From the NCBI GenBank assembly GCA_030064935.1, contig JASJEA010000002.1, positions 1 to 61,838 of the forward strand: 61,838 nt of DNA, given 5' to 3'. Shown one piece after another: positions 1,816 to 54,942 of this stretch. The notes under the pieces were generated by a model that made no database searches, was not told the DNA's origin, and saw only the letters and a program-made list of their open reading frames with translations. The position numbers were made by a program, and so were the translations under genes. Position 1 is the first letter of the stretch. Each line of letters starts with the position of its first letter. Source of the DNA: Crocosphaera sp. (GTDB lineage Bacteria; Cyanobacteriota; Cyanobacteriia; Cyanobacteriales; Microcystaceae).

Positions 1816-2379
1816 ATGACCATGATGGATTTTTTTCGTAAAAGTGAGGGAATCTGGTTTTCCCAGCGCACAGTCCATCGTTTTGATTCTCTAGCTGATG
1901 AATCAGGGATCTCTAATGTGATTATTAAAGTGTTGGAAAAAGATGACAAAAGGGTTTTGGAGGTTTGTCAAGAACAAGATGTTGATCCAGCTTTGGTCAG
2001 TGGCGGTGCCAGTTTTGCCTGGCAGGACAATTTAGAGGAGAAAGAACCTAACCCTAACTATGCTGCGATTTTAGTAGATATTCCCTATGATCCTAATCCA
2101 CGCTCAGGGAAATTTTTACGAAACCGAGGTTATGTAGAAGGGATTCCTGTTGTCAGTGCCTACCATTTTGCTGATGATGGAGTCTTGACCATCGAAACGG
2201 AATATGAAAGGAACCAAGGTCAAGAGCGCGCTTGGTTTCTTACGGATGATTTTCGTGTCAGGGTGACTACCGTTAAGATGATGAACGGTGTTAATTTGAT
2301 GGGTTACTGTTCTGAGCGTCGTTGTGTTTCTGCTTCTCAACTATCGGAATTAATGGAACAGCATCGCTCTTATCTTTAA
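1816..2379 (+). CDS. cpcS: CpcS/CpeS-family phycobiliprotein lyase
   Basis: A lipocalin-fold chromophore lyase that attaches phycocyanobilin or a related bilin to a Cys of phycobiliprotein subunits in the cytoplasm. The N-terminal MMDFFRKSEGIWFSQRTVH is the family signature (MxxFFxxSxGxWxSQRTxH). The rest carries the usual pattern, including GGASFAW, RGYVEGIPVVSAYHF and a conserved C-terminal ERRC. About 188 residues, normal length. Several ATGs are possible (1798, 1816, 1822); 1816 or 1822 best fits the family start. I cannot separate the CpcS, CpcU and CpeS subgroups by eye, so the bilin and Cys specificity are open. Confidence 0.85.
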   Translation: MTMMDFFRKSEGIWFSQRTVHRFDSLADESGISNVIIKVLEKDDKRVLEVCQEQDVDPALVSGGASFAWQDNLEEKEPNPNYAAILVDIPYDPNPRSGKFLRNRGYVEGIPVVSAYHFADDGVLTIETEYERNQGQERAWFLTDDFRVRVTTVKMMNGVNLMGYCSERRCVSASQLSELMEQHRSYL

Positions 2380-2393
2380 ATAATATTTTTTGA

Positions 2394-2525
2394 TGGGGAT
2401 GAAAAGCGGTCGAGGGATGGCGAGGTTTCCTCGCCATCCCTCGACCAAGAGAAGAAGAATTTTCCTTGTTTCAAGCCTCCAATTTAAGAAGTCGGTAATT
2501 TGCGCATTTGCGCATTCTGATTGAC
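2394..2525 (-). repeat. Dispersed repeat, copy R1, with perfect 18-bp hairpin
   Basis: Read on the minus strand it starts GTCAATCAGAATG, continues through TTGGAGGCTTGAAACAAGG and ends near GCTTTTCATCCCC. Inside it lies a perfect 18-bp inverted repeat, GGTCGAGGGATGGCGAGG (2408-2425) and its complement (2429-2446) around a 3-nt loop. A second full-length copy lies at 4683-4810. Shorter copies are at 20067, 32729, 44636 and 55251, with a trace at 16648. It may also terminate cpcS transcription. Confidence 0.8.
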
Positions 2526-2551
2526 CACAATTGGGACAAGTCTGGGATGGT

Positions 2552-2800
2552 CTAATTTTTTCTACTAGATGATTCGACCTTGACTTGAATAGCACTGAGA
2601 ATAGGAGTTTTGAACTTCAGAAGAATAATTAAACTTAAAATATGGATTAGCCAATGAGAAATAACTAGCCCCCAGATGACACAAGCCAAAGCACTGGCAA
2701 CGGCTAAAACCCCAAAAATATCATTCCCTGTTCGTTGATACCAGAAAACACTACCGATGGAAGTGATTAAGAATAAGAGCGGAAAAATAGGGAGTATCAT
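2552..2800 (-). CDS. Small two-helix membrane protein, unknown
   Basis: About 82 residues with two clear hydrophobic segments: MILPIFPLLFLITSIGSVFW, and a second at about residues 28-60 that is rich in Val, Ala, Ile and Leu, separated by a short polar loop (YQRTGNDIFG). The end is basic and polar. The ATG at 2800 is preceded by AGAAGGTG at suitable spacing; a GTG nine bases upstream is the longer alternative. No family recognised. It lies alone between repeat R1 and the RecB-like gene. Confidence 0.5.
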   Translation of the reverse strand: MILPIFPLLFLITSIGSVFWYQRTGNDIFGVLAVASALACVIWGLVISHWLIHILSLIILLKFKTPILSAIQVKVESSSRKN

Positions 2801-3054
2801 AGCAATCACCTTCTAGTTTTTGGGAGTCATCAAAAACACAATAATTCATTCCTGTTTGTCTGATCCCCAAGTTGTTTGCGTTCTGATATCAAGGATAACA
2901 TTACCTTTTAAAAAACCCTCAGAATATAAATAACTGAAGGGGTATCTTGTAAAAAATCTTTGCATAACTTTAAATTTTAAGGTAATTAACCCTCAAATTA
3001 GACTTTTTATGTGAATAAATGTTGAGTATTTTCAAGACTTTTAGGGGTTTATTC

Positions 3055-4506
3055 CTAGAAGTCAAATTCAGTTTTACTAAAGAATTCAAACAACCAATTT
3101 TTGAGGTGAAGGGTGGCTAAACAATCATCCTCGTTATAACGTAAAATAGAAGCCAACAAACTACGATCGCCTGTGGTTAACCATTGGTCATACCAGCAAA
3201 CGCATTGATCCCCGTTAATACCAGGATCACGCCAATGAAATCCTAACCAGTTAGCTAAGGACTTGAGGGAGTAATTTTCTACAGGGAAGATCACGGAGGT
3301 AATCACATAATGATGAAGATCAATAAAACGGGAGAGTAAATGCTCAATTTCCTCCTCAGGAGTTTGATATAAGTTTCCTAAGCGTTTTATGGTGTCGACT
3401 TCGTATTCAGAAAAGTGAAAAATCGGGGCATTTTGATAGCGATTCACTAAATCAAGAAATTGATACCAAATCTTTTCTTCTTCGTGAGGGGTTTCTGCCA
3501 GAAAACCAAAGAAGGTTCTGGTTTGAGTGAGATAATCAACCACCACAACCCCTAATAAGTAATCTAAGTTCCGCTCCGGCTCGGCTTCAATATCAAAATA
3601 TAGTTCCACCGTAGCAGGGGCAATCTTCTTCTCCATATCAGGATGATGAGATGAACGAGGCAGAGCAAAATTATGAATCAGAGCATATGCTTGTTGTTGT
3701 AGTTTTCTTCCCAAGCTTTTGCCGATGCCTTCCTCTAAGGTGTGAACATCCGCCTCGGCTAAGGAAGGGGTGTTATGAATACCTAATTCTTGTAATGTCT
3801 GATAACGACTGGGGGTAACCCCTGGCACTAAGGAGAGATGTTTTTGAGCGTGAGCGATCGCATAACAATGACTGTACCACTGACAAAGATTGCAGCGTTG
3901 TCGTGTAATAAAAACCTCTGGTTGTTCATCTTTATCAAGGATGGTGACACATTCTTCTAAAATAAGCTGTAATTTTGGTAACCACTGCATTACATCCACA
4001 GAGGAATGTTTTAGAGGGCGAATCACCAGTTGCGGGTTGGAGGGGCTAGTTTCTTGGATAATGGCTAATAAGTAAGCATAAAATGTCCCCATTAGTTTAT
4101 ATTCTGGTTTAGCACGACGGCCCAGGTGTATACTCACAGGGTAATAATACCAATTGCCAAATTTAGACTCACCAGGTTGTTTAATCAATAAATGGGGCCT
4201 CCCCAGATATTCATAAGATAGGTTTGAACACCACAAAGTTCCTTGATAGATACATTCCACACCTTGCCCCATTAATGCTTCGGTTGCTTGGGCTTTTTCT
4301 CGCCAACTATTGCCAGAAGGGGAAGGACATTGATAATGGGGATAAAACGCTTCCAAAACTGAGTCAATATGACGTTGGTTTTCTTGTCGTAGTTTCAGCA
4401 GAAAATCCCGTTTAAAATCTTTTTGTTTGGGATCACCATGAATATTAAGAAAGGCACGGCGTGAACATCTTTTATAATCTAGTAATAAAGAATCAGTGAT
4501 CAGCAT
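3055..4506 (-). CDS. TM0106-type RecB-like nuclease with RNase H-like domain
   Basis: 483 residues from the ATG at 4506; a longer open frame to 4626 has no supporting start. The first half is a RecB/Cas4-like module ending in the Cys cluster CNLCQWYSHC, which in relatives can hold an iron-sulfur cluster. A helix-hairpin-helix-like linker (LQELGIHNTPSLAEADV) follows. The C-terminal half is an RNase H-like 3'-5' exonuclease fold: YFDIEAEPERN (first acidic pair), HFSEYEVDTI and RYNEDDCLATLHLKNWL (last acids). The usual Asp-x-Lys of the RecB core reads PVSIHLGRRAKPEY, so that site looks degenerate. Likely a DNA repair or processing nuclease of unknown substrate. Confidence 0.75.
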   Translation of the reverse strand: MLITDSLLLDYKRCSRRAFLNIHGDPKQKDFKRDFLLKLRQENQRHIDSVLEAFYPHYQCPSPSGNSWREKAQATEALMGQGVECIYQGTLWCSNLSYEYLGRPHLLIKQPGESKFGNWYYYPVSIHLGRRAKPEYKLMGTFYAYLLAIIQETSPSNPQLVIRPLKHSSVDVMQWLPKLQLILEECVTILDKDEQPEVFITRQRCNLCQWYSHCYAIAHAQKHLSLVPGVTPSRYQTLQELGIHNTPSLAEADVHTLEEGIGKSLGRKLQQQAYALIHNFALPRSSHHPDMEKKIAPATVELYFDIEAEPERNLDYLLGVVVVDYLTQTRTFFGFLAETPHEEEKIWYQFLDLVNRYQNAPIFHFSEYEVDTIKRLGNLYQTPEEEIEHLLSRFIDLHHYVITSVIFPVENYSLKSLANWLGFHWRDPGINGDQCVCWYDQWLTTGDRSLLASILRYNEDDCLATLHLKNWLFEFFSKTEFDF

Positions 4507-38037: not shown

Positions 38038-39138
38038 TTAGAAATTAGTATTAATTCCCTGAATTAGTATCACAGGGTGGGCGCGAGGATATGGTGATCC
38101 TGGAAATTGTGAAAAGCAAACACGACTACCCACGGTAGGTTTATTGCCGTAAACGCTATCAAAATGGAAAAATATTTTTTGCTTTTTATCATCACTTTCA
38201 ATGCTTCCCCAATTATATTTGGGATGCAAATATCCACAAGTCCCTGTTTGGCGTTTGACAATTGGATAACACAATTTTTCACATAATTGAACTAACTCTT
38301 GGGCAGTTGGACGATCATCAGATTTTTTTTGTAAACATTTTATGATCAATTGATATAATTCGTTTCCAAGAGATTGAAATTGTATATTTTTATCAATATA
38401 AGTTGGTTTTGAAGGCGTTTTTGCTACCAGAATATTAGGAACAGCAGCTAAACCAAAACCGAAAGGTTTTTGTCCACTAATTAACTCATACATCATTGCC
38501 CCTAAAGCCCAAATATCTGAAGGTTTACCGGCATTACGAGAGTCTTGAATCATTTCAGGTGCCATGTATGGCAAGGCTCCCATAACTGTAGCAGATGCAG
38601 AGGTGGATGAGTCACCACCTTCAACAGCATTGACAATTTCTTCTTCAGCCATTTTTGCAATGCCAAAGTCCGTAATTTTAATCTCTGACAAATCAAAATC
38701 CCCCACAAACATGACATTACTTGGCTTAAGATCTCGATGAATCACACCAGCATCATGAGAAGCAGCAATACCTTTAGCTAGATAATGAAGAATTTTAGCA
38801 GTCAAATAGGGATCAATTAATCCAAGTTGTTGTAAAAGTCCTTCTTTTAAATCTTTTCCTGATATAAATTCTTCAATCAAGTAGGAAGAGGAGGATGTTT
38901 CAATATAATCTAATGTTTTTGCCACATTGGGATGATTAACCCTTGCACTAACGACAGCACTACGTTTAAAACGTTTCTGAGCAGATGAATTTTTAGGAAC
39001 TTTCAGAGCAACTTCTCTTGTTAAAACTGAATCTGTTGCACAGTATACTTGCTGCATTCCTCCTTCTCCAACAAAACGGAGAATTTCATATCTGTTATCA
39101 ATACGATCCCCTAATTTATGAAGTTTATCCCCTGTCAT
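38038..39138 (-). CDS. Ser/Thr protein kinase with C-terminal cold-shock-like domain
   Basis: 366 residues. Hanks-type kinase domain at about 15-280: FVGEGGMQQVY (Gly loop), VALKVPKN (Lys), VIHRDLKPSN (catalytic Asp), ITDFGIAKM (Mg Asp) and GALPYMAPEM, all intact. No membrane helix. The tail from about residue 300 (CGYLHPKYNWGSIES, then KIFFHFDSVYGNKPTVGSRV) looks like a cold-shock/OB domain: IFFHF fits RNP2 and VGSRVCF the next strand. That would let the kinase bind single-stranded nucleic acid. Last gene of a tight three-gene operon; overlaps the preceding kinase by four bases. Confidence 0.85.
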   Translation of the reverse strand: MTGDKLHKLGDRIDNRYEILRFVGEGGMQQVYCATDSVLTREVALKVPKNSSAQKRFKRSAVVSARVNHPNVAKTLDYIETSSSSYLIEEFISGKDLKEGLLQQLGLIDPYLTAKILHYLAKGIAASHDAGVIHRDLKPSNVMFVGDFDLSEIKITDFGIAKMAEEEIVNAVEGGDSSTSASATVMGALPYMAPEMIQDSRNAGKPSDIWALGAMMYELISGQKPFGFGLAAVPNILVAKTPSKPTYIDKNIQFQSLGNELYQLIIKCLQKKSDDRPTAQELVQLCEKLCYPIVKRQTGTCGYLHPKYNWGSIESDDKKQKIFFHFDSVYGNKPTVGSRVCFSQFPGSPYPRAHPVILIQGINTNF

Positions 39139-40205
39139 AAAACAACCTCTGGATTAGATATATCAAATGTAATAAATAATCTTGAAGAATCTTTTTCTCC
39201 AAGTGTAATAACACAGTCTTTGGGAAGTGAACGTCCTTTTTGAGCAGGAATATTATTGATAAAAACGGCTCCCTTAACTAGATCAATAATAAAGTTTAAG
39301 CCATCATATTTGATATGTATTGACCCATAATTAGGAACATCAAGTTTAGCAACTTGCTTTATCTTTTCGATCACATATTCTTGATTACCTGAAATTAATA
39401 AACCACGATGTTGCCCTAATAGTAAATAATTACCAATTAAGTTTTTAACCTCTAACATTGTAGGACGATTAACTGGATTTTCAGCTAATGTTTTATCAAG
39501 AATATCACAAATTGCACTGGGAAGATCCAACCCAAAAGATGAAAAACTGGGAATTTGTTCAATTTCTGGAGGAATTCTTAATAACTGTTTTGGAAAATGT
39601 TGTCCGGAAATATACCAAGCTATTATTCCAAAAGCATAAACATCTATGGCGTTTGTAAATGATACCTGACCTGATTTATATAATTCAGGAGCAGCAAACC
39701 CAGGTGTGCCAGTAAATCCCAGAGTAGAATCATTTTGTCCAGAAAACCTAGCTAACCCAAAATCAAAAAGTTTAATAATTCGTGATTGATCAAATTTCAT
39801 ATTATTCGGTTTAATATCTCTATGAATTAAACCTTGAAAATGAATATCACTAATTCCAGAAGATATTTGATAAAGAAGTTTTAAATAATCATTACTAGAT
39901 AAAGTATTGTTCTCAACAAAAGAAGTTAAATCTTCTCCTGGAACATATTCCTGGACAATACCAATCTGTTGATCAGATTGGCTCATAAAAATATCATAAA
40001 TTTGAACAACGTGCTTTGATCTAATTTTTTGTAAAGCAGCTATTTCATCTAGTAATCGTCTCTGATTTTCTACTTCATTAATAAATTTAATAGCCACAAT
40101 TCGCTCAAGATTTTGATCTTTGCAACAAATTACTTTGCCCATTCCACCTACAAATGCAGTTGGTGTATCAATGGGTATATACCGAGGTGGTATTTGACTA
40201 GACAT
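39135..40205 (-). CDS. Ser/Thr protein kinase with C-terminal FHA-like domain
   Basis: 356 residues. Kinase domain at about 12-270: IVAIKFINE, LIHRDIKPNN, KLFDFGLARF and GTPGFAAPELY are intact. The Gly loop is atypical (AFVGGMGKV) and comes unusually close to the N-terminus. Residues 285-350 (YGSIHIKYDGLNFIIDLVKG, FINNIPAQKGRSLPKDCVIT) resemble an FHA-type beta sandwich. A GGAGG ribosome site precedes the ATG. Middle gene of the cassette, five bases after the phosphatase gene. Confidence 0.85.
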   Translation of the reverse strand: MSSQIPPRYIPIDTPTAFVGGMGKVICCKDQNLERIVAIKFINEVENQRRLLDEIAALQKIRSKHVVQIYDIFMSQSDQQIGIVQEYVPGEDLTSFVENNTLSSNDYLKLLYQISSGISDIHFQGLIHRDIKPNNMKFDQSRIIKLFDFGLARFSGQNDSTLGFTGTPGFAAPELYKSGQVSFTNAIDVYAFGIIAWYISGQHFPKQLLRIPPEIEQIPSFSSFGLDLPSAICDILDKTLAENPVNRPTMLEVKNLIGNYLLLGQHRGLLISGNQEYVIEKIKQVAKLDVPNYGSIHIKYDGLNFIIDLVKGAVFINNIPAQKGRSLPKDCVITLGEKDSSRLFITFDISNPEVVL

Positions 40206-40210
40206 AATAA

Positions 40211-41311
40211 TTAAGCCTCCTCAGAAAGTTCAATATTAACTTTCGGAGTCTGTTTTTCATCATCTTCCTTGTTGTGATTCACTGTTGTATTCTTAGTCAT
40301 TTTTCTATTCGATTTATTCATCGGTTTATTTGATTCTTTTACACCTACTGTGTTCGACGCTGTTTTACTAATTGTTTTATGTTGGGTGCGATTAGAAGGT
40401 TCTAGCTTTGGTTTATTAGAGCCATTGGATTCTCTTGGTTGGGGGAAAAAAGTAGCTTGTCCATTAATACTGAATACATCAATAAAATCAATTTCTGATG
40501 TTTCTTTCCCGTGGGGAAAAATGTGATCGGTTCTTAAAATTGCTGCGGTAGCATTATCTTTTCCCCCAATCCATTCTGAAAACTGTGTTAGTCTAGTCAC
40601 TGTTTCTTTGGCATTATGAGCATGACTAATTAATGCTCTAAATACATCATTAGTAATACCGTGAGAACCGTCAGAAGTAAGAAGTAACCATTCAATATTA
40701 TCAAAAGATTGGAGATCGACACGATTAATGATTATACCTTCTCCCATCCCTATGAATTGTACTAATTGTCTAAACTCAGGAGGAGGAGACTTAATATTAT
40801 GTTCAGCGAGTTGTTCTTCGAGGGTATCATCAGTGCTAATTTGTTTTATTTCACCACTTTTAAGAACAGCATAAATTCGACTGTCTCCCACATTGATAGC
40901 GGCATATTCATCTGTTCCTCTAAAAGCGATTGCCGATAAGGTTGAACCTCCCTCACTTTTAAATTCTGTATGTACTGTTTGATTAGCGTACATAGCAGCT
41001 TGTTGAAGTTTTTCCGCTAGTTTAGAAGCTTCACTATGATAAAGACTAGAAATAAAAGCACTAACGGCTAAAGTTGCACAACGACCTCCCGCAACCATAC
41101 CTCCCATTCCATCACATAACACCAGAGCGATAATGGAGGGTTGCTTCTGATTAGAAAATTGCATCTTAACAAAAACCGTTCGGTCTTGATTTTCAGAACG
41201 TTGACCCAATGAACTACTGAGGGCAATTCGTCCCGATTCCAGTATAATAGAGCCGTTTTTCTCTCCATTACTTAACCAATTGGATATTCTGTCCTTTATA
41301 TACTTATACAA
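40211..41311 (-). CDS. PP2C-family Ser/Thr phosphatase
   Basis: 366 residues. PP2C core at about 28-265 with all metal-site motifs: GQRSENQDR, LCDGMGGMVAGG, INVGDSRIYAV, LLTSDGSHGI and GGKDNATAAIL. The C-terminal 100 residues are Ser/Asn/Lys-rich and disordered. No ATG is available before the core; TTG at 41311 with GAGGA four bases upstream is the likely start. It should reverse phosphorylation by the two downstream kinases, with which it forms one operon. Confidence 0.85.
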   Translation of the reverse strand: MYKYIKDRISNWLSNGEKNGSIILESGRIALSSSLGQRSENQDRTVFVKMQFSNQKQPSIIALVLCDGMGGMVAGGRCATLAVSAFISSLYHSEASKLAEKLQQAAMYANQTVHTEFKSEGGSTLSAIAFRGTDEYAAINVGDSRIYAVLKSGEIKQISTDDTLEEQLAEHNIKSPPPEFRQLVQFIGMGEGIIINRVDLQSFDNIEWLLLTSDGSHGITNDVFRALISHAHNAKETVTRLTQFSEWIGGKDNATAAILRTDHIFPHGKETSEIDFIDVFSINGQATFFPQPRESNGSNKPKLEPSNRTQHKTISKTASNTVGVKESNKPMNKSNRKMTKNTTVNHNKEDDEKQTPKVNIELSEEA

Positions 41312-42002: not shown

Positions 42003-42683
42003 TTATTTTAACAAATTTTTTCTAAAATTTTGGTACTCTTTCGTTTTCATACCTTGTTGTAATACTTCTAGAACTTTCAATAAATTGCCTGTTAATAATG
42101 CTTGTATATCAAGCCATAAACCAGGATAAATATCACTCTTGATAACGCCATCTTGATTCGCAATCAGTTGAATATATTTCCCTTTTTTGAAAGAAAACCA
42201 ATCAATTTCATTGTCATAAACTCGCCATACTAAATATTCTTGAACTTGATTCCGTTCGTATGCTTTAAATTTATCATGTAAATCAATAGAAACCGTACTA
42301 GCCGCCATTTATACTATTAATTCTGGCGCGCATTCTACATAATCATCTTCACTAATGCTTGATTTTCCTTCGTGATCTATACGCAGTAAAGCATCAGGTT
42401 GAGGAACATTTTTTTGATCTAATCTTACCGTTGCATTATCAGCTAATTCAACTCCTGGGGTTGCTGCTTCATACTGGGCTAACCAACCAATAATATGAGC
42501 ATGGGGTTTACCATGTTGTCTAAATCTTAAGGCAGCCGGCATATAAACTAAACCCTCAATTAATTCAGCTTTTTTAACATTAGACATTAATTGATAGCGA
42601 TTTTCAAATTCTAAAGCAGTTAAGCGATCGCCATTTTCTAAAGGGGGAATATCTGGAGCAGATTTTATTAAATTTGAATTCAT
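42003..42683 (-). pseudogene. Uma2-family gene broken by an in-frame stop at the catalytic Glu
   Basis: One continuous frame of 227 codons with a single TAA at 42309-42311. The upstream part (124 residues) ends CAPELIV and the downstream part begins MAASTVSIDLHDKFKAYERN. Intact relatives read ELIVEVAAST, so the stop stands where the Glu codon (GAA) should be, and the following ATG replaces GTG. PQPDALLRID gives the first acid. Both halves are otherwise well conserved, so the break is recent or a sequencing error. The end of the upstream reading overlaps no other gene. Confidence 0.85.
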
Positions 42684-45929: not shown

Positions 45930-47690
45930 TTACGGGGTTGGATAAGAACGATTACGGCCTTCCATTTTAGCCCGATAGAGGGCTTGATCCGCTTTTTCTA
46001 GGAGGGTTTTGCGGGAAAACGATTTATCGGGAACCATGCTGGCTGAGCCACAACTGACGGTAACATAGTCGCCTATTTGAGAGGCAGTATGTTCTAGCTT
46101 TAATGAGCGAATTTGTTCACAAATTCTTTGAGCAACCTGCATGGTTGCAGCCGGGTTAGAATTCGGTAAAACAACAATAAACTCCTCTCCGCCAAAACGG
46201 GCAGCCAAATCTGTTTTTCTTACTGCTTGTAAAATCCCTTTGCTAACTTTTTGAAGACATTTATCACCAGTGGGATGACCATAATGATCATTATAAAGTT
46301 TAAAGTAATCCACATCACATAAAATAATCGATAAAGGGCTCTTTTTTTCCTTATGCTGTTCCCATAATTTGGCAAAATGACTATCAAAATAACGACGGTT
46401 ATGAAGGGTGGTTAAAGAATCAATAGAAGCTAATTTTTGCAAAGCAAAATTCTGATAACTAGGAATGGCTAGGACTGATACCCCTAAGGCAAAACCGGGA
46501 GCAATTAGTATCACCCATAAACCATTCAAAAAAGCATAATAGGAAACGCCCATTAAAATCAAACTAGGCATTACTAAACTGAGCAACAGAAAAGCAAGAA
46601 AGACAAAAATATTAAATTTGCTATCACGGTTAATGACTAAATGCCAGCTTACCATTCCCCCAATCAAAGACCAAGTTAAAATCCATAACCATTCTAAAGT
46701 CTCTGGCATTACCTTGATTAAAGGTCGTCCTTCTAAAGCCGCCGCCAAGATTTGACTACTGATATTAGCATGAATGATGACTCCTCCTGTCCGTAAAGGA
46801 TAAGGGTTGAAGAAACTACTGTAAGGGGTAAAAAATTGATCGTTTAAACTCTCAGCAGTCGAGCCGATAAAGACAATACGATCGCGAATTAGATGAGGAG
46901 CAAACTGATTCCTTAATAAATCTTGCAGAGGAATTTTTGAAAATACGTTTTTAACTCCTCGATAATTTAAAAGAATTTGATACCCCCCATCATCGGCCCT
47001 TAAGTAACCACCGTCATTCTTTCTTAAGGGTTTAATGATAGCTTTTCCTAACTTTAGTGTCGACCCATTTGTATCAGGGACAGAGGTCAACTCAATACCC
47101 TCTTTTTCCAAATATTGTAGGGCAGCTTTGGTTCCCAAAGATAATTGAATGTCTCCTTCTTTTCGTCGAACTGATAGTAAAGCCCGACGGACTTTACTAT
47201 CAGGATCAACAACGATATCAGCCAAAGCAACTTGTCCTTTTTCCGCTAGAATTGGGGGAGGGGCAACCGGTCGCCCACTGACTTTTTCCACACCAATTAA
47301 ATTGGGAGTTGTCTGAAAAACAGCCTCAATCTCATCTCTTCCAGGTTCTACCACTAAATCTCGATAAATATCTAAGGCAATGATGCGAGGATTTTCTGCT
47401 TTAATAATGTTGATGGCTTGGGCAATGGTTTGATCTGATAAAGGCCATTGATTTAACTCGGTTAAATCTGCTTCATCGATGGTAACAATGGTAATTCTTG
47501 GGGAGATTGTTTCTGGGGGACGAAGGCGAAAGAAGTTATCATAAGCTGCCCATTCCAGAATTTGAAAAATACCTACATGATTAATAGTAAGGGTAATTAG
47601 AGTGACAGTAGGACAGGTAATCAAAACGGCTTGCCAGTCTTGATAAAATTGTTGAATTTTTGAGCCAATATTTACAAATAATCGTCTCAT
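45930..47690 (-). CDS. CHASE2-domain diguanylate cyclase
   Basis: 586 residues. N-terminal membrane anchor (about 20-40), extracytoplasmic CHASE2 sensor at about 45-330 (FFRLRPPETISPRITIVTID, then LIRDRIVFIGSTAESLNDQF), three membrane helices (about 335-415), then GGDEF at about 425-585. The signature is AARFGGEEFIVVLP, intact, with DVDYFKLYND for metal binding; no RxxD inhibitory site stands out. It should make c-di-GMP in response to an external or membrane signal. CHASE2 proteins often accompany CHAT and DUF928 genes in cyanobacteria, as here. Confidence 0.92.
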   Translation of the reverse strand: MRRLFVNIGSKIQQFYQDWQAVLITCPTVTLITLTINHVGIFQILEWAAYDNFFRLRPPETISPRITIVTIDEADLTELNQWPLSDQTIAQAINIIKAENPRIIALDIYRDLVVEPGRDEIEAVFQTTPNLIGVEKVSGRPVAPPPILAEKGQVALADIVVDPDSKVRRALLSVRRKEGDIQLSLGTKAALQYLEKEGIELTSVPDTNGSTLKLGKAIIKPLRKNDGGYLRADDGGYQILLNYRGVKNVFSKIPLQDLLRNQFAPHLIRDRIVFIGSTAESLNDQFFTPYSSFFNPYPLRTGGVIIHANISSQILAAALEGRPLIKVMPETLEWLWILTWSLIGGMVSWHLVINRDSKFNIFVFLAFLLLSLVMPSLILMGVSYYAFLNGLWVILIAPGFALGVSVLAIPSYQNFALQKLASIDSLTTLHNRRYFDSHFAKLWEQHKEKKSPLSIILCDVDYFKLYNDHYGHPTGDKCLQKVSKGILQAVRKTDLAARFGGEEFIVVLPNSNPAATMQVAQRICEQIRSLKLEHTASQIGDYVTVSCGSASMVPDKSFSRKTLLEKADQALYRAKMEGRNRSYPTP

Positions 47691-47768
47691 TAGCTTAAAT
47701 AATTATAATAAATAATTAATTAAAAGGAATTCATAATTAGTATTTTTAAAAGTTTTCAAAGGTTGAGG

Positions 47769-47802
47769 GTAAAAAGTAATAAGTTGACTCATTACTTTTT
47801 AC
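47769..47802 (-). terminator. Terminator after the DUF928 gene
   Basis: GTAAAAAGTAAT (47769-47780) and ATTACTTTTTAC (47791-47802): a perfect 12-bp AT-rich stem, 17 bases past the DUF928 stop. It suggests the CHASE2 gene has its own promoter. Confidence 0.5.
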
Positions 47803-47818
47803 TAACGACTTATTTGAG

Positions 47819-48577
47819 TTATTTACTAGCAATAATGGGCTGAGAAGCAATATCACCTAAATTGCCAGAGTTGAGAACAGTAGACCAAATACGATTTAAC
47901 TGAGCATTATGAGGATCTTTTGTCTTCATTGCCATGAGAACAGCTAACATATCATACCAGAGTCCCTCATTTCCTAACAAGTTAGCTTGTTCTAAAGAAG
48001 GATTTTGCTGCCAATTATTTAACTGAGTGGTCAAATTTTGAGTAGGATTAACTCGACGAATGGTTCCCGTCACTGTAGGACTATCAGGGAGTAATTTATC
48101 GCCACAGATTATGGCAAAAGACCATTTATACTCAGTTCCCACGGCCAAAGGAGGAGCCTCTGCCGGCAAAGAAATTTTGACAATCCCTCCTTTGTTGTTT
48201 AAAGATAAAAAGGTTTGATAATGGTGTTGATTTTTGTCGTCTTGTAAACTAACAAAAGCTTTTTTCGCCGTAGTTTGGGGAATATAAACAAAAAGGGAAG
48301 CTTGGGGTTGCATTGTCAATCTTTGGACATTTGGGGGAACCACTGCCGTTAAATAAGGGTTGAGATTTTTATCATCTCCAGGACATTTTCCTCCATCACG
48401 GGAGGCTCCCCCTTGAGAGTCTTTCGGGCGATCGCCACTGGGAGGAACAAAAGTCACATTACTGGCAAACAATTCTCCTTGAGTAGCGTTGGCCTGAACA
48501 ACTGCCAGAGGATTAAGGAACAGTGTGGTAGATAGGAGACTAAAGACAAAAGAAGTTTGTAAAGGTTTCAGTGTCAT
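47819..48577 (-). CDS. DUF928 secreted protein
   Basis: 252 residues with a signal peptide (FVFSLLSTTLFLNPLAVVQA, cleavage near ANA). The body matches DUF928: GGKCPG, NPYLTAVVPPN, LFVYIP and YKWSFAIICGD. Probably periplasmic or outer-surface; function unknown. The gene starts 39 bases after the CHAT gene, so the two are likely co-transcribed. Confidence 0.85.
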   Translation of the reverse strand: MTLKPLQTSFVFSLLSTTLFLNPLAVVQANATQGELFASNVTFVPPSGDRPKDSQGGASRDGGKCPGDDKNLNPYLTAVVPPNVQRLTMQPQASLFVYIPQTTAKKAFVSLQDDKNQHHYQTFLSLNNKGGIVKISLPAEAPPLAVGTEYKWSFAIICGDKLLPDSPTVTGTIRRVNPTQNLTTQLNNWQQNPSLEQANLLGNEGLWYDMLAVLMAMKTKDPHNAQLNRIWSTVLNSGNLGDIASQPIIASK

Positions 48578-48616
48578 CGCGTAAAAAAGAGTGAGGTTAA
48601 ATCATGTCAGCCCCGT

Positions 48617-51205
48617 CTAAAGCCAATTACCGACTAAGATAAAAGCTGACCAATAAAAAGGATGAGAAAATTCAGGCGAGTGCAATAGGGAAAGTTGCGC
48701 TTGACGCAACGCTTCTGCTTTGTTTTGTGATGCAACCGTAGGTTGATTGAGGTTCCGATAGAGTTCGGTCATCAATTGTGCCGTTGATTGGTCTTTAACG
48801 GACCACAGGGTTGCGATGGTACTGCGGGCTCCAGAACGAACGGCCATACCTGCTAATCCCAGCGCCGCTTGTTTATCGCCGCTAGCGGTTTGACAGGCAC
48901 TTAAGACCAATAATTCCACAGGATTATCGGTATTTTGTTCACGAGTCCGCAGAATCCTTTGAAAGTCCCGAACCCTGATGGTATCTTCCCAGGCAAGCAC
49001 AAAGGTTTCATCAGGGTTGGAACTAAACTGTCCGTGAGTTGCTAAATGCACCACCGCTAATGGGGAGAGAGTGAGGGCATCTTGAAACTGACGACGGGTA
49101 AATTGTTGATTGAGAAGTTGTTCGGTGGGGATTTCTTGACCAATTTCTTGTACTTCGATTTCTACTCCAGGTAAGGCAGAAAACCCTTGATTAGCTTCAC
49201 TGACTCCTGCGACTACCGCTTGTAATAATTCCGGGGCTAAATTTCTAGGATCAACCAATTGTAATCCTGGGGCTAAGGCCACTTGATAGTTTTCGATTAA
49301 ATATTGTTGCCCATCGTGAAGGGCTGCCATAGGTAGGTTACGAAAAACCCCATCTAAGACAAAGACTAGGGTTTGGATTTCTGCTTGAGCGAGTTGGGGT
49401 TCAATAGGTCGAATTAGCCAATCATACATCTGTTGGGATAGGGTGAGACGTATTTGATTAGAAAAGGCAGGGTTGAGGGCTTGTAGGAGTTCTTCTAAGG
49501 TGTTTTCTACGGCTGTTTGAGATTGGGGAATTTCGTGATAGGTGAGGGGTTGACCGGCAACAGAAACAATAACCCCCAGGCGATCGCTTAAAATAATGGG
49601 ATAAATTACCGCAGCCTTGGCATCAATCTCATCAATTTGTTTCGGTTGTGCATCTAAACAGGCTTCACGAAAGAAATTTTCCAGTTCTGCTAGTTGTAAG
49701 GATTCAATCACCTCTCTGGCTTGGATTAAATTGGTTTGAGGAATGGCTTGGCCTGGGGTTTCTGGAGTTAAGAGCAGACTAACTAAGTTTCGATATACAG
49801 GTTCAACGCTGTTACGGAAGGAAAATTGTACCCCGGCATCGATGGCTACTAAATCGTTACGAATGGTTTGTAGGGTTTGCACGGCTGCTTTATTGGTAGC
49901 GATGGCCCCTTGACGGTTTCCTTGTACTTTGAGCAGTCGACTGAGTTGCCATTGCCATTGATAGGCCATATCATTGCCTTTAATATCTTGAGCTAGTTGT
50001 AAGGCTTGTTCGGTCAAGGGTTGGGCTGTTTGCCATTCTTGTTGCTGTTCGTATAATTTTCCTAGGGTTCCCAAAGCATAAGATGTTGCGCGAGCATCGT
50101 TTAAGTCTTTTGCCTGTTCTACGGCTTGGCTTAGGGGTTCAAAAACGGTTTGGGGGGAAACCTTTTGGGTTGCCAATAATTTCAGTAAACTTTCTCCTAA
50201 GTTAACGTAGGCGTAAACAGTGCGACGACTGGGGGGTAAGTTGGCCATTTTCCGTTGTAGAGAAGGCAACAGGGTTAAGGCTGTTTGCTCTTGATCTTGA
50301 TTAATTAAGAGACGAAATTGATTGAGTTGCGCTTCAATTTGTAATCCAGGGTTGAGAGCAGTTTGCCCTGCTTGTTGATAGAAATTGAGGGCTTGAGTGG
50401 TTTGTTTGGCCGCTTGAGAGACGTTCCCCAGGTTGAGTAAGGCCGCCCCTTGATCATCGGCACTATTGAGGGTTCGAGCCAGGGTTAAGGCTTCTTCTAG
50501 GATAGTTTGTGCCTGTTCTAAGTTACCCACAGCTTGTAAGGCTAATCCTAAACCCTGTAATCCTCTGAGTTTGAGAATAGAATCTGCTTGCTCATCTAAC
50601 TGTTGTTTGATCTGGGTTAATTGTTCTAAGGAACGACGATAAAGCCCTAAATTTTGTAGAGCCTGGGCCCGATTAATTCGAGTTCCTAAAACCCCGATTT
50701 GGTCTTGTCCTTGTTGATAGTATGTTTCGGCTTTCTTCCAGGTTTCTATGGCGGTTTGGGGTTCTCCTAAATTGAGGTATAAACTGCCTTGGGTGTTGAG
50801 ACTTTGGCCATGAATGAGGGTGAGACGAGGGGTGTTAGGGGATAGGGTGTTAATGAGCCTTAGACTCTCTGTAATGGTACTTTGGGCTTCTTCCCATTGT
50901 CCTAGGGCCTGATGGGCTAAGGATAGGTAGTTTAAAGTAACAATTTGAGTGAGGGTATTTTCTGCTTTTTGAGCCGATTGTAATGCTTCTTGCCAATAGG
51001 CTATCGCTTGGCTATATTGTCCTTGTTGATAGAATTCTTGGCCTTGTTGCAAACTGCCTGTATTTTGAGTTTGGACGGTTTCTAGGGCAATCATCAAAGG
51101 TTTCTGTTGTGCTCTAGAGGGCAACCAAGGGTTTAAACTCATCACAAAAGTTACCAGTCCTAGGGTTAAACTAGAGACAAGGGGGGAGGATTCAAAAGAT
51201 ATCAT
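48617..51205 (-). CDS. Exported TPR-CHAT caspase-like protease
   Basis: 862 residues. Signal peptide (LVSSLTLGLVTFVMSLNPWL, cleavage near SRAQQ). About ten TPRs occupy 50-440 (FYQQGQYSQAIAYWQEALQS and similar), a helical linker follows, and the CHAT domain fills about 560-862. The caspase-like dyad is present: His in VVHLATHGQF and Cys in LVLSACQTASGDKQAALGL. So an active Cys protease outside the cytoplasm is plausible, with TPRs recruiting a substrate or partner. The TPS exoprotein upstream and DUF928 protein downstream are the obvious candidates. Confidence 0.92.
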   Translation of the reverse strand: MISFESSPLVSSLTLGLVTFVMSLNPWLPSRAQQKPLMIALETVQTQNTGSLQQGQEFYQQGQYSQAIAYWQEALQSAQKAENTLTQIVTLNYLSLAHQALGQWEEAQSTITESLRLINTLSPNTPRLTLIHGQSLNTQGSLYLNLGEPQTAIETWKKAETYYQQGQDQIGVLGTRINRAQALQNLGLYRRSLEQLTQIKQQLDEQADSILKLRGLQGLGLALQAVGNLEQAQTILEEALTLARTLNSADDQGAALLNLGNVSQAAKQTTQALNFYQQAGQTALNPGLQIEAQLNQFRLLINQDQEQTALTLLPSLQRKMANLPPSRRTVYAYVNLGESLLKLLATQKVSPQTVFEPLSQAVEQAKDLNDARATSYALGTLGKLYEQQQEWQTAQPLTEQALQLAQDIKGNDMAYQWQWQLSRLLKVQGNRQGAIATNKAAVQTLQTIRNDLVAIDAGVQFSFRNSVEPVYRNLVSLLLTPETPGQAIPQTNLIQAREVIESLQLAELENFFREACLDAQPKQIDEIDAKAAVIYPIILSDRLGVIVSVAGQPLTYHEIPQSQTAVENTLEELLQALNPAFSNQIRLTLSQQMYDWLIRPIEPQLAQAEIQTLVFVLDGVFRNLPMAALHDGQQYLIENYQVALAPGLQLVDPRNLAPELLQAVVAGVSEANQGFSALPGVEIEVQEIGQEIPTEQLLNQQFTRRQFQDALTLSPLAVVHLATHGQFSSNPDETFVLAWEDTIRVRDFQRILRTREQNTDNPVELLVLSACQTASGDKQAALGLAGMAVRSGARSTIATLWSVKDQSTAQLMTELYRNLNQPTVASQNKAEALRQAQLSLLHSPEFSHPFYWSAFILVGNWL

Positions 51206-51432
51206 CGGGTTAATTACTTTATTTCATGGATGATTAAGATCAGATTTAATGTTAACGATTTAGATTTAAAATGGGTATATGAATACCATGTCAATTGTAG
51301 AGAAAATAGATATTTTTAAGGATATCTAGAATTTTAAAAATATTAATTCTAAATTCTTAATTCTAAATTCATTTTGTATCTATTTTGTAACATCCCATAC
51401 TAGCTTTTGACGAGACGGAATTCAACTAAATT

Positions 51433-54400
51433 TTAAAACTTAGATATTTCTAATTCAGTACAACTACGGAGGCTTTTATCCCTATTAGACTGTGGAGAAT
51501 GCGGAGTTCTTTCTTGCTCATCCCCTTCTATTAAATTTCGCAAATCTTCCCAAATATTACGCCATCTTAAAGGTTGTTCTGGGTTATCAGGAATGCCACC
51601 TTTTCCGGTGCGAATAAATACATTGCCTTCATCAGCCGCACAAGCAATAACGATGAGATCACGGGGATCGATGGTATTTTCGGGTAGTCGATTAAACCCA
51701 GAGGTGGGATCTCCTTCTGGAACCCGAATTAATACCTCTCCACTAAAGGCCGGTCCCAACTCGGAGGTTACGGTAATATCAGATAATCGGGTTAAAAAGT
51801 CTCGAAACTCAATACCAAACACCCCTAAAGCATCAATAATAACCCTTCCTCCTTGACTTTGTTGAGCATTAGCGGTGATATCATTGTTTTCTGTGGGGAA
51901 ACTCAAGAGAAAGTTTGTTGTAATGTTGATATTGCCCCCAGGTTCGGTTCCCAACCCATTTGTACTGATTAAACTGCCATTGCGTAAAAAGATTAAGGGT
52001 GATCTAATCGTAATGTTCCCTTCTCCTCCCGTTGCTGAGATAGTTCCTGAGTTTTGGGTGAAGGTTTGGGGGGAGGTGACTTGAATATTAATATTGCCCC
52101 CTGATGTCTCACTTGCGTTAGCAGTAATTTCGCTATTACTGAGGATATCTAAGCTTCCTGTGACTAACTCAATATTACCACCTCGGCCCACACCTTGGGC
52201 ATTGGTACTAATGAGACTATTATTGCCCAGAGTCAGGCCGTTGGTGCGGATGGAGATGTTGCCATTACTGCCTACCAACGTATCGGCTGTAATCGTTCCA
52301 CTATTGTCGAGAACAATGTTGTTAGCCTCGATATTAATGTTACCTGGTGCGCCCTGTCCGGGGGAGACATTTGTGTTACGACTGGGAAAATTCCCCACGT
52401 TAATCGTTGCCCCATTATCAATCTCTAAATTCCCCGTTGTGATGTTAACACTACCACCATTGCCTGTACTATTAATAGCATTGGCAAACAATCCACTGGC
52501 CCCGAAGCTAGTTTCTCCTGAGAGTTCCGTGGTTTGAGCAACAATGTCTAAATTCCCCCCATTGCCAAACCCGGCTGTACTAACAACAATTTGACCCCCT
52601 TCTTGAACGGTTAATTGTTGAGTATTAAGGCGAATATTACCCCCATTCCCTTGAGCATTTTCCAGAACGGCACTAAACAAACCACTGGCCGTCTGAGGAA
52701 CTCCTCCAATGACTTGCACTTTTTGGGCATTAACAGTAATGTTACCCGCTTGACCTAACTCCGTGGTACTGGTGTTGATTTGACCCCCATCTCTGAGACT
52801 GAGGAGATTGGTATTAATGTTGATTTGACCTCCATTCCCTGTGAGATCATTGTCCGTGTCCTCAACACTTCCCACTTCGGAAATGATAGCACTAGGACGA
52901 AAATTTGAGATCCCCTGGATATCAATACTGTTAGCTTGGATGTCAATGGTTCCCCCATTGCCTGAACCCAGGGTTAAAGAACCAATTTGTGCCCCATTGG
53001 TAATCACTAAACCGCCTGTGTTGATCCGTAAACTTCCTCCATTGCCTGTGGCATCTGTTTCCACATTGCTCAAAATACCTGTGGGGTTCCCATTAGGGGC
53101 GTTTCCCGTTAAGGAAATGTTAGACGCATTGATAGTTGCACTGCCAGCGTTGCCGTTGGTAAAGGTATTAACGCTAATATTCGCTCCACCGCTCAAGGTA
53201 AGGTTGCCAGTATTGATTAATAGATTGCCCCCATTGCCTGTGGCTTCTGGTTGTACATTACCAAAAATCCCCGTCTGTGAGCCTGTAATGGGTGAAGTAC
53301 CCCTCAAATCTATGTTATAAGCGTTTATGGTGGCACTGCCAGCATCCCCACTGCTAAAGGTGTTAACCCCAATATTAGCCCCATCGCTTAAGGTAAGGTT
53401 GCCAGTGTTGATTAACAGATTGCTCCCATTCCCTGTGGCACCAGTCTCCACATTACCAAAAATCCCTGTGGGTAGATTCGTAAGGGCTGAAATTCCTGAC
53501 AAATAGATATTAGAAGCGTTAATGACGGCAACCCCTCCATCCCCACTGCCAAAGGTTCCGACGTTGATATTGGCTCCCCCTGACATTTGTAGGGTATTGG
53601 TATTAATGGTTAAGCTTCCCCCTGTTCCTGATGCGTTGACGGCGACAGCCCCAAATAAGCCACTCGGTACTGTTAATTGAGCGAATGGTAAAAAAGATGC
53701 TCCACTCATTAGAATATCTTGGGCATTTACCGTGAGGCTGCCTGCTTGCCCTGCACCAAAGGTATTCGCCCCTATTTGACCTCCATCACTGACAATTAAG
53801 CGTCCTGTATTTAATTGAATCGTGCCACCTTGTGCGCTAGGGGTACTACTGGAAGAAACATTGGCAAATAGGCCGCTAAAAACGTCTTGAGCAAATAGGT
53901 TTGGAGGAATTCCAAAGGGAGGGGTATTACCAATCCCACTAACCTGGATAGACTCTGTGGTGGTTACTTTCAATTCACCCCCCACTCCACCTCCTGTGGT
54001 ATTGGCTAAGATAACCGAACCCTCTGTTAAGCTTAAATTTCGTCCTTGAACTTGGACACTGCCCCCAAGATTGCCACTTACATCCACAGAGGAGGCTCCT
54101 CTCATATTAATATTGTTGTAGCCAATGGCACCAGTGGGAGGGCTTAATTGTATTTGCCCATTTTGATTGCTAAACTCTACCAGGCCATTACTAAAGGCCC
54201 CTAGTTCGATCCTTCCGTCTAGTGCGTTAATATTACCTCCATCGAAGATAATATCACCCCCAACCAGGGCTAGGGTTTCCCCTGAGTTAACGGCAAAACG
54301 GTTCACCGGATCAAACGGCCCATTGGGGAAGCTCGGCAATCTAGTGATTTCAAAGTTATTGGGATTGGTGGCTAGATTATTGCCAAACCCCTGAACTGTT

Positions 54401-54942
54401 ATGCTTCCTGGGTTCGGACCCATTTGTAGCCCTAGGGGGGCTGTCATGGTTAAGAGGGTTCCAGAAGCAGTTGAGTTTCTGGCACTAAATAGCCCTCCGC
54501 CCACAAATTCAATACTATCGGCTGTACTGGCTACAAAGGAACCACCAATATCAATGGTGGCATTGGGTCCGAAGATAATGCCATTGGGGTTAATAAGAAA
54601 AAGGTTGGCGGTGCCGTTAGCTGTAATGGTTCCTTGAATATCTGAGATGCTGGTGCCGGTGACACGACTAATAATATTGGCGATCGCTGCTGCATTGCCG
54701 AAGTTGGCACTGCCAGGGTTAGGAACTGAGAATTGAGAAAAACTATGAAATAAGTTACCTCCTACAGTTGTCCCTCCTGTAATGGTATAGTTGTTACCCA
54801 TCTGATTCACCACTGAGTTATTGGGCAGGGTTCCATCAGCTTGAATGGCCTGTGCTAAGACATGGGTTTCAGAAACGAAGAATGTTATGCCTGTTGCTAG
54901 GTATAAACAAAGGGAGGGCAGGGAGAAAGGGAACTTAACCAT
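51433..54942 (-). CDS. Filamentous-haemagglutinin-type TPS exoprotein
   Basis: 1169 residues. Signal peptide (residues 1-31), TPS secretion domain at about 32-280 with the NPNG motif in NLFLINPNGIIFGPNATI, then a long Gly/Asn/Ser-rich beta-helix of imperfect repeats of about 40 residues (GNGGxLxINTGxLxLSxGAxI pattern). The C-terminus (LIVIACAADEGNVFIRTGKG, GIPDNPEQPLRWR) is the cap I know from cyanobacterial members. It should cross the outer membrane through a TpsB pore and form surface fibres. No TpsB gene is nearby. First gene of the CHAT/DUF928 set, 227 bases upstream of CHAT. Confidence 0.92.
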   Translation of the reverse strand: MVKFPFSLPSLCLYLATGITFFVSETHVLAQAIQADGTLPNNSVVNQMGNNYTITGGTTVGGNLFHSFSQFSVPNPGSANFGNAAAIANIISRVTGTSISDIQGTITANGTANLFLINPNGIIFGPNATIDIGGSFVASTADSIEFVGGGLFSARNSTASGTLLTMTAPLGLQMGPNPGSITVQGFGNNLATNPNNFEITRLPSFPNGPFDPVNRFAVNSGETLALVGGDIIFDGGNINALDGRIELGAFSNGLVEFSNQNGQIQLSPPTGAIGYNNINMRGASSVDVSGNLGGSVQVQGRNLSLTEGSVILANTTGGGVGGELKVTTTESIQVSGIGNTPPFGIPPNLFAQDVFSGLFANVSSSSTPSAQGGTIQLNTGRLIVSDGGQIGANTFGAGQAGSLTVNAQDILMSGASFLPFAQLTVPSGLFGAVAVNASGTGGSLTINTNTLQMSGGANINVGTFGSGDGGVAVINASNIYLSGISALTNLPTGIFGNVETGATGNGSNLLINTGNLTLSDGANIGVNTFSSGDAGSATINAYNIDLRGTSPITGSQTGIFGNVQPEATGNGGNLLINTGNLTLSGGANISVNTFTNGNAGSATINASNISLTGNAPNGNPTGILSNVETDATGNGGSLRINTGGLVITNGAQIGSLTLGSGNGGTIDIQANSIDIQGISNFRPSAIISEVGSVEDTDNDLTGNGGQININTNLLSLRDGGQINTSTTELGQAGNITVNAQKVQVIGGVPQTASGLFSAVLENAQGNGGNIRLNTQQLTVQEGGQIVVSTAGFGNGGNLDIVAQTTELSGETSFGASGLFANAINSTGNGGSVNITTGNLEIDNGATINVGNFPSRNTNVSPGQGAPGNINIEANNIVLDNSGTITADTLVGSNGNISIRTNGLTLGNNSLISTNAQGVGRGGNIELVTGSLDILSNSEITANASETSGGNINIQVTSPQTFTQNSGTISATGGEGNITIRSPLIFLRNGSLISTNGLGTEPGGNINITTNFLLSFPTENNDITANAQQSQGGRVIIDALGVFGIEFRDFLTRLSDITVTSELGPAFSGEVLIRVPEGDPTSGFNRLPENTIDPRDLIVIACAADEGNVFIRTGKGGIPDNPEQPLRWRNIWEDLRNLIEGDEQERTPHSPQSNRDKSLRSCTELEISKF

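Follow-up and report, generated by a model that had tools for sequence, protein, structure and literature searches.

A phosphatase–kinase–kinase trio on a Crocosphaera chromosome as a probable KKP module with a possibly asymmetric kinase pair

The first 61,838 nucleotides of contig JASJEA010000002.1 from Crocosphaera sp. (GenBank assembly GCA_030064935.1), hereafter the window, carry three minus-strand open reading frames (ORFs) at positions 38038–41311, which encode a PP2C phosphatase and two protein kinases, the middle gene giving the one whose tail has an FHA fold and the last gene the one whose tail is a cold-shock domain (CSD) (Table 1). Five bases (40206–40210) separate the phosphatase gene from that of the middle kinase, and the two kinase genes overlap by 4 bases (39135–39138); the tight spacing described in a first-pass annotation of the window is thereby confirmed by the ORF coordinates. 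The phosphatase gene starts with TTG, GAGG lying 5 nt upstream, and a promoter scan gave 24 sites vs. 23.1 by chance, which is no excess. Since the genome has 27 Pkinase matches, 25 of them over the cut-off, kinases alone are not unusual in this organism, and it is the trio with its tails that forms the specific part.

Table 1. Features of the trio and the evidence on which each of them rests.
Feature	Positions	Strand	Evidence
PfpC-like PP2C phosphatase, presumed antitoxin	40211..41311	-	366 aa; PP2C_2 34.6 bits (cut-off 24); PstP/Stp1 top PDB matches
PfkB-like Ser/Thr kinase, FHA-fold tail	39135..40205	-	356 aa; Pkinase 144.6 bits (cut-off 31.7); alphaC Glu54 kept
PfkA-like Ser/Thr kinase, cold-shock tail	38038..39138	-	366 aa; Pkinase 161.4 bits (cut-off 31.7); 39–79% identity to 11 homologues
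Cold-shock (OB-fold) domain, PfkA residues 298–359	38062..38247	-	AlphaFold2 model pLDDT 87; PDB CSD matches by fold and profile
FHA-fold domain, PfkB residues about 267–350	39156..39407	-	Model pLDDT 90.4; 50 of 50 VIA-align rows listed are FHA-domain entries
Ser60 at the alphaC-Glu position of PfkA	38959..38961	-	PknA alignment
Changed RNP1-like motif W310-G311-S312 of PfkA (family GF(I/A))	38203..38211	-	39-row PfkA alignment
Variable linker of PfpC, residues 263–356	40244..40525	-	Low identity to other cyanobacterial PfpCs
Conserved PfpC C-terminal motif KVNIEL (family QLxIxF), candidate docking peptide	40226..40243	-	Tail pattern count

This architecture, which the first-pass annotation had regarded as undescribed, was published in 2024 as the KKP module (PfpC–PfkB–PfkA), a tripartite toxin-antitoxin and anti-phage module (PMC11341870). 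KKP is known from the Pf6 prophage of P. aeruginosa MPAO1 and from more than 1200 clusters, with Cyanobacteria among the carriers (PMC11341870). The two kinases are toxic when co-expressed, an effect that PfpC neutralises, and four heterologous KKPs were protective (PMC11341870); according to a 2026 paper, RepG4 of Pf4 activates KKP via PfpC degradation (PMC13048266). Passages of a review summarising KKP add nothing on this point (PMC12593503), and the match in a further paper is a phage name and unrelated (PMC13299392). In our literature search for KKP, cyanobacteria appeared solely in the mention made by the 2024 paper.

The window trio resembles KKP in several respects. Its genes follow the order PP2C–kinase–kinase, adjacent and on the same strand; their lengths of 1101, 1071 and 1101 bp all lie inside the KKP filter of 900–1300 bp; the phosphatase is of the PP2C type (PF13672; Table 1), as is PfpC; and the kinases bear FHA and CSD tails, respectively. 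Cyanobacteria are among the named carriers, and in other carriers mobile elements and defence genes lie nearby. We consider it very likely that the trio is a KKP module, that is, a tripartite phosphorylation-based toxin-antitoxin system, whose role would most likely be anti-phage defence of the abortive or growth-arrest kind. What the locus itself contributes to this reading is gene order, domains, homology, patchy distribution and purifying selection.

The tail of PfkA is, by profile and by predicted fold, a true cold-shock domain as in KKP. Its match to PF00313 in Pfam is weak, with E 0.0036 for the complete protein and E 2.9e-4 for the isolated tail, the latter scoring 21.1 bits where 27 are required, and a profile built from 18 PfkA tails found the cold-shock domains of Unr and CspB in the PDB, the best two matches having E 2.5e-6 and 5.5e-5. 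An AlphaFold2 model of the tail is five-stranded with a mean pLDDT of 87; with this model, Foldseek gave 53 matches at E ≤0.001, and nearly all among the 50 matches listed were CSD proteins. The tail of PfkB is predicted to adopt the FHA fold, which is likewise the KKP arrangement. Profile searches for FHA in this tail gave no match, and it was fold comparison that settled the assignment: VIA-align returned FHA-domain entries in all 50 matches listed for the model, at Z 7.1–8.9, of which eight chains reached at least 8, the program warning that Z <8 may reflect a common arrangement. Foldseek alone was weak (best E 0.004), with mostly FHA entries at the top. PF00498 at E 5 is not discriminating, since it failed to match the window PfkB tail as well as 15 KKP PfkB tails, including proteobacterial ones. 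Both tails proposed in the first-pass annotation are thus borne out, the FHA-like one by fold and without a sequence match. Canonical FHA domains bind phosphothreonine through Gly-Arg and Ser-x-x-His residues. No such residues are visible in an alignment of 15 PfkB tails, and phosphopeptide binding by the PfkB tail is therefore not to be assumed.

Several other kinase systems were considered. The MAD6, PD-T4-6 and PknB-type identities offered by PADLOC and NCBIfam were rejected, as they reflect a shared Hanks kinase domain and the match is mainly confined to the kinase part; the two kinases score 125.9 and 112.3 bits against the cut-off of 460 for the MADS kinase MAD6, and 202 and 112.2 bits against the cut-off of 450 for the PASTA kinase PknB/Stk1. 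The TerY-P triad places a TerY-type vWA protein beside a PP2C and a kinase; no vWA match was found in the trio, the three Uma2 ORFs or ten other neighbours.

Homologous trios are found well outside cyanobacteria. Those of Klebsiella phage Kp4865-2 (L005), Rhizobium indicum plasmid pPR13E04 (L006) and a P2-like element of E. coli (L007) are homologous over their full length (PfkA 48, 52 and 51%; PfkB 41, 43 and 44%; PfpC 29 and 27% in the first two), and all three keep GFI in the CSD; unlike the window trio, they are located on phages or plasmids. Among the best 30 and 40 matches in phage and plasmid records, PfkA relatives are full-length at 39–53% identity, with one partial relative at 44%, and are followed by kinases at about 35% or less. 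The trio of R. indicum adjoins a Shedu gene, those of Agrobacterium and Rhizobium adjoin ABC-three-component genes, and that of Xanthobacter has RelE/ParE nearby and an IS5 between PfpC and PfkB; a trio is present in Pantoea as well, and elsewhere genes for phage structural proteins or for conjugation lie nearby. Of 5,426 E. coli genomes, 18 have relatives of the L007 kinase pair. A profile scan of GTDB genomes yielded 18 loci, and an 18-row profile found 8 in viral contigs, in which a single-sequence search with the CSD tail gave no match. A PfkA-type tail is present in 39 locus entries; all three genes are there in 33 of them, and the six incomplete ones either look broken or partial (L012, L023) or are cut by contig ends (L014, L068, L019, L024); counts over 39 rows overstate independence, as they keep the near-duplicates L009/L010, L020/L021, L014/L068 (one contig), L071/L072 and L075/L076. 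Loci L015, L065 and L016 are longer stretches that replace L002, L003 and L004. The first-pass view of a coherent phosphatase/FHA-kinase/CSD-kinase module holds. Two trios sit on contigs with unexpected labels: one at L018 219–3546, whose 8.6-kb contig bears the label Candidatus Aenigmatarchaeota archaeon, probably through a binning error, the alternative being an archaeal KKP, and one at L030 3957–7231, on a contig labelled Verrucomicrobiales, which lies close to Acidovorax and Variovorax copies in the trees.

The trio is an accessory module and not a core one. With the own genome counted each time, the PfkA-type tail occurs in 4 of the 291 genomes sampled from the class and gives strong matches in 6 of the 388 sampled from the order; the eight congeners in the latter sample all lack it. 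In 15 further genomes of the order the CSD matches are weak and come from ORFs that resemble ordinary cold-shock-domain proteins, and profiles of the PfkB tail and of PfpC found nothing in their loci of roughly 3 kb. This distribution refutes the proposal, raised in the first-pass annotation as what would undo its idea, that the trio is a core housekeeping kinase/phosphatase locus. Its position between genes that we take from their translations to be uvrB and pgi would fit such a locus, yet in each of the five congeners examined these two genes are on separate contigs, and we regard a housekeeping role as scarcely credible.

All three genes appear to be maintained by selection, pN being well under pS in each of them (for PfkA, 0.13–0.21 vs. 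0.67–0.72 in four comparisons), with dN/dS values to be read qualitatively only because dS is near or at saturation. A branch with support 78 sets the cyanobacterial rows apart in the PfkB tree, and the PfkA tree requires two changes for them; the searches behind both trees were short and the branches are long, and ten rows that were near-duplicates or partial had been omitted. As the cyanobacterial copies lie near each other, there is moderate support for exchange or descent within the phylum being likelier than a fresh transfer from Proteobacteria.

The two kinases differ at the alphaC-glutamate position. In an alignment with PknA, Ser60 of PfkA falls on a glutamate of PknA, which in the kinase family is the alphaC glutamate. 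In an active kinase this residue normally pairs with the beta3 lysine. Among the 39 PfkA rows, 35 can be scored here and show Ser (34) or Gly (1) and never Glu, vs. Glu in 33 of 33 scorable rows out of 34 for PfkB. Of the distinct kinases of this genome, 17 could be aligned; 16 of them carry Glu here, the window PfkA being the sole exception; the 17 are those caught by the pattern among the 25 over-cut-off matches, two rows (L094_0 and L088_1) having been dropped as fragments of kinases already in the set. The intact catalytic residues previously ascribed to both kinases are therefore found in the FHA kinase, which keeps Glu54, and not in the CSD kinase. Lacking the glutamate that normally pairs with the beta3 lysine, PfkA is probably inactive or atypical by itself, as far as its sequence tells. 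Such a kinase fits the published observation that host targets were not appreciably phosphorylated by either KKP kinase on its own (PMC11341870). The main text of that paper contains no mention of salt bridge, pseudokinase, glutamate, alpha-C, helix or allosteric.

In PfpC, the residues of DGMGG, TSDG and DNAT are conserved across the family, and a variable linker precedes the C-terminal motif. Compared with six other cyanobacterial PfpCs, residues 29–262 are 40–60% identical, vs. 13–24% for residues 263–366. At the very end, a QLxIxF-like pattern recurs in 23 of 27 non-redundant PfpC tails vs. 0.41 expected from shuffles, although it was picked after inspection of the tails and the rows are related. 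This end motif may serve as a docking peptide for the kinases; in the main text of the KKP paper, the words ‘disordered’ and ‘docking’ do not occur (PMC11341870). Of the three proteins, PfpC also changes fastest, being 46% identical to its counterparts in L013 and L015 vs. 63–65% for PfkB and 79% for PfkA. Much of this divergence sits in the variable tail, and fast change would be expected if phages touch PfpC.

The CSD of the window PfkA departs from its family in the RNP1-like motif, where GF(I/A) is replaced by GSI. At the position of its aromatic residue, the 39 PfkA rows have Phe (33), Trp (1) or one of five non-aromatic residues (Ser, Lys, Leu, Thr, Ile), and the five non-aromatic rows all come from cyanobacteria, for which eight distinct loci are included; in four of these rows a Trp stands two residues before. 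Decay is unlikely to lie behind this change, as the PfkA genes are under purifying selection. Nucleic-acid sensing by a CSD with GSI is conceivable, and recognition may be altered in cyanobacterial PfkA. The motif regarded as essential in proteobacterial KKPs is not universal. GF(I/A) is described as conserved in the CSD and is absent from the published search filter (PMC11341870).

A number of points weigh against reading the trio as an anti-phage KKP. First, two tested KKPs lost toxicity or defence when GF(I/A) was mutated (PMC11341870), and the window protein has GSI in its place. Second, the trio lies among ordinary chromosomal genes and not in a visible prophage, none of the ten neighbouring ORFs having a phage domain (Pfam, E 1e-5), while about 90% of the published KKP clusters lie in prophages, a location that is not required (PMC11341870). 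Third, the homology established here is to KKP-type trios and not directly to Pf6 PfkA, and our literature search found no functional data on a cyanobacterial KKP. Finally, if one live kinase of the pair suffices, PfkA could be catalytic when paired despite the missing glutamate, with PfkB completing it as a partner and not as an enzyme. Some of these points would suit a KKP-derived host signalling or stress circuit in cyanobacteria, in which the kinases have a regulatory, non-toxic output and nucleic-acid sensing by the altered CSD has been lost: the window trio and the cyanobacterial copies inspected have mostly ordinary chromosomal genes around them (many named from translations), the aromatic residue of GF(I/A) is lost in five cyanobacterial rows with the gene still under purifying selection, and the cyanobacterial PfkBs group on one side of a branch. 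We nevertheless hold such a circuit to be rather unlikely, because the trio is patchy and missing from all eight congeners, unlike a host regulator, because it stays intact as expected of a toxin-antitoxin set, and because two transposases follow it in L016.

The anti-phage KKP thus remains the preferred reading, and the defence role suggested in the first-pass annotation is a probable one for this accessory locus. By analogy with those systems, from which toxicity, defence and triggering through PfpC are taken (PMC11341870), PfkB and PfkA would act as a pair of cytoplasmic kinases that PfpC, tethered to them, keeps dephosphorylated. A phage product that inhibits or removes PfpC would release the pair, which would autophosphorylate and then phosphorylate many host proteins, so that growth and phage replication stop. 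Two parts of this scheme, the completion of PfkA by PfkB and the tethering of PfpC by its C-terminal motif, are our own suggestions. We tentatively propose, as an idea that is more likely wrong than right, that KKP is an obligate asymmetric pair, with PfkA, devoid of the alphaC glutamate throughout the family, completed structurally by PfkB and PfpC held via its C-terminal beta-strand-like QLxIxF peptide, and that the side of the CSD that faces nucleic acid was remodelled in one branch of the cyanobacteria (WG[SKLT]I). If true, this would explain why neither kinase works alone; phages would need only to displace or degrade a tethered phosphatase; and the signal of the CSD would have been changed or dropped in the cyanobacterial branch. 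The loss of the alphaC glutamate, the GF(I/A) change and the PfpC end motif appear to go beyond the published description of KKP, and the first and last of them offer direct and cheap mutational tests of the two-kinase need and of antitoxin targeting. The locus itself is of a known kind, a kinase-based toxin-antitoxin and anti-phage module placed on a cyanobacterial chromosome outside any visible prophage, and its moderate interest comes from the kinase asymmetry and the altered CSD and not from the module as such.

The surroundings of the trio also bear on a proposed link with Uma2 nuclease-fold genes, according to which Uma2, the kinases and the phosphatase would together form a nuclease-linked defence system. 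A Uma2 gene does adjoin the trio, 71 bases upstream of PfpC, as the first-pass annotation had noted, with a broken second copy beyond it; L066 has a Uma2 gene at a distance of some 1.5 kb from its trio, and in L016 a NERD-kinase gene precedes PfpC. However, the Uma2 gene next to the trio also adjoins pgi in two of the four congeners examined that have no KKP (L060, L061), and Uma2 is common, with 34 copies over the cut-off in this genome and 23–128 matches in seven others. When 30 other KKP locus entries, amounting to 402.6 kb with near-duplicates included, were searched with a single Uma2 sequence, fragments turned up in L067 only, the divergent L066 copies being missed. Given Uma2 beside pgi in KKP-less congeners and the many copies of it, the functional link is unsupported and only the adjacency stands; we judge a nuclease-linked system very improbable. 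The second Uma2 (42003–42683, minus strand) is split by an in-frame TAA into ORFs 42003–42308 and 42309–42683, and in two congeners the interval from pgi to the first Uma2 lacks these roughly 0.7 kb.

BLASTN of the KKP region gave no match in eleven stretches around uvrB or pgi from five congeners and one other relative. An insertion site cannot be defined, since the congener stretches examined do not preserve the order of the genes near uvrB and pgi. The ten neighbouring ORFs, scanned out of the 45 window ORFs of at least 130 aa, have Pfam matches to TPR, uracil phosphoribosyltransferase, CpeT, shikimate kinase, NUDIX, CHASE2-GGDEF, DUF928, CHAT-TPR and TPS-domain proteins, with one lacking a match. 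Genes that we presume from their translations to be petB and petD are present in the window as well. Beyond pgi, at 45930–54942, a CHASE2-GGDEF cyclase, a DUF928 protein, a CHAT-TPR protein and a TPS-domain protein are encoded in one minus-strand run. In Phormidium tenue (L016), the gene just upstream of PfpC (2243–3661) fuses a NERD nuclease-related domain to a protein kinase, an IrrE/M78 peptidase gene lies further upstream, and the two transposases are found downstream of the trio.

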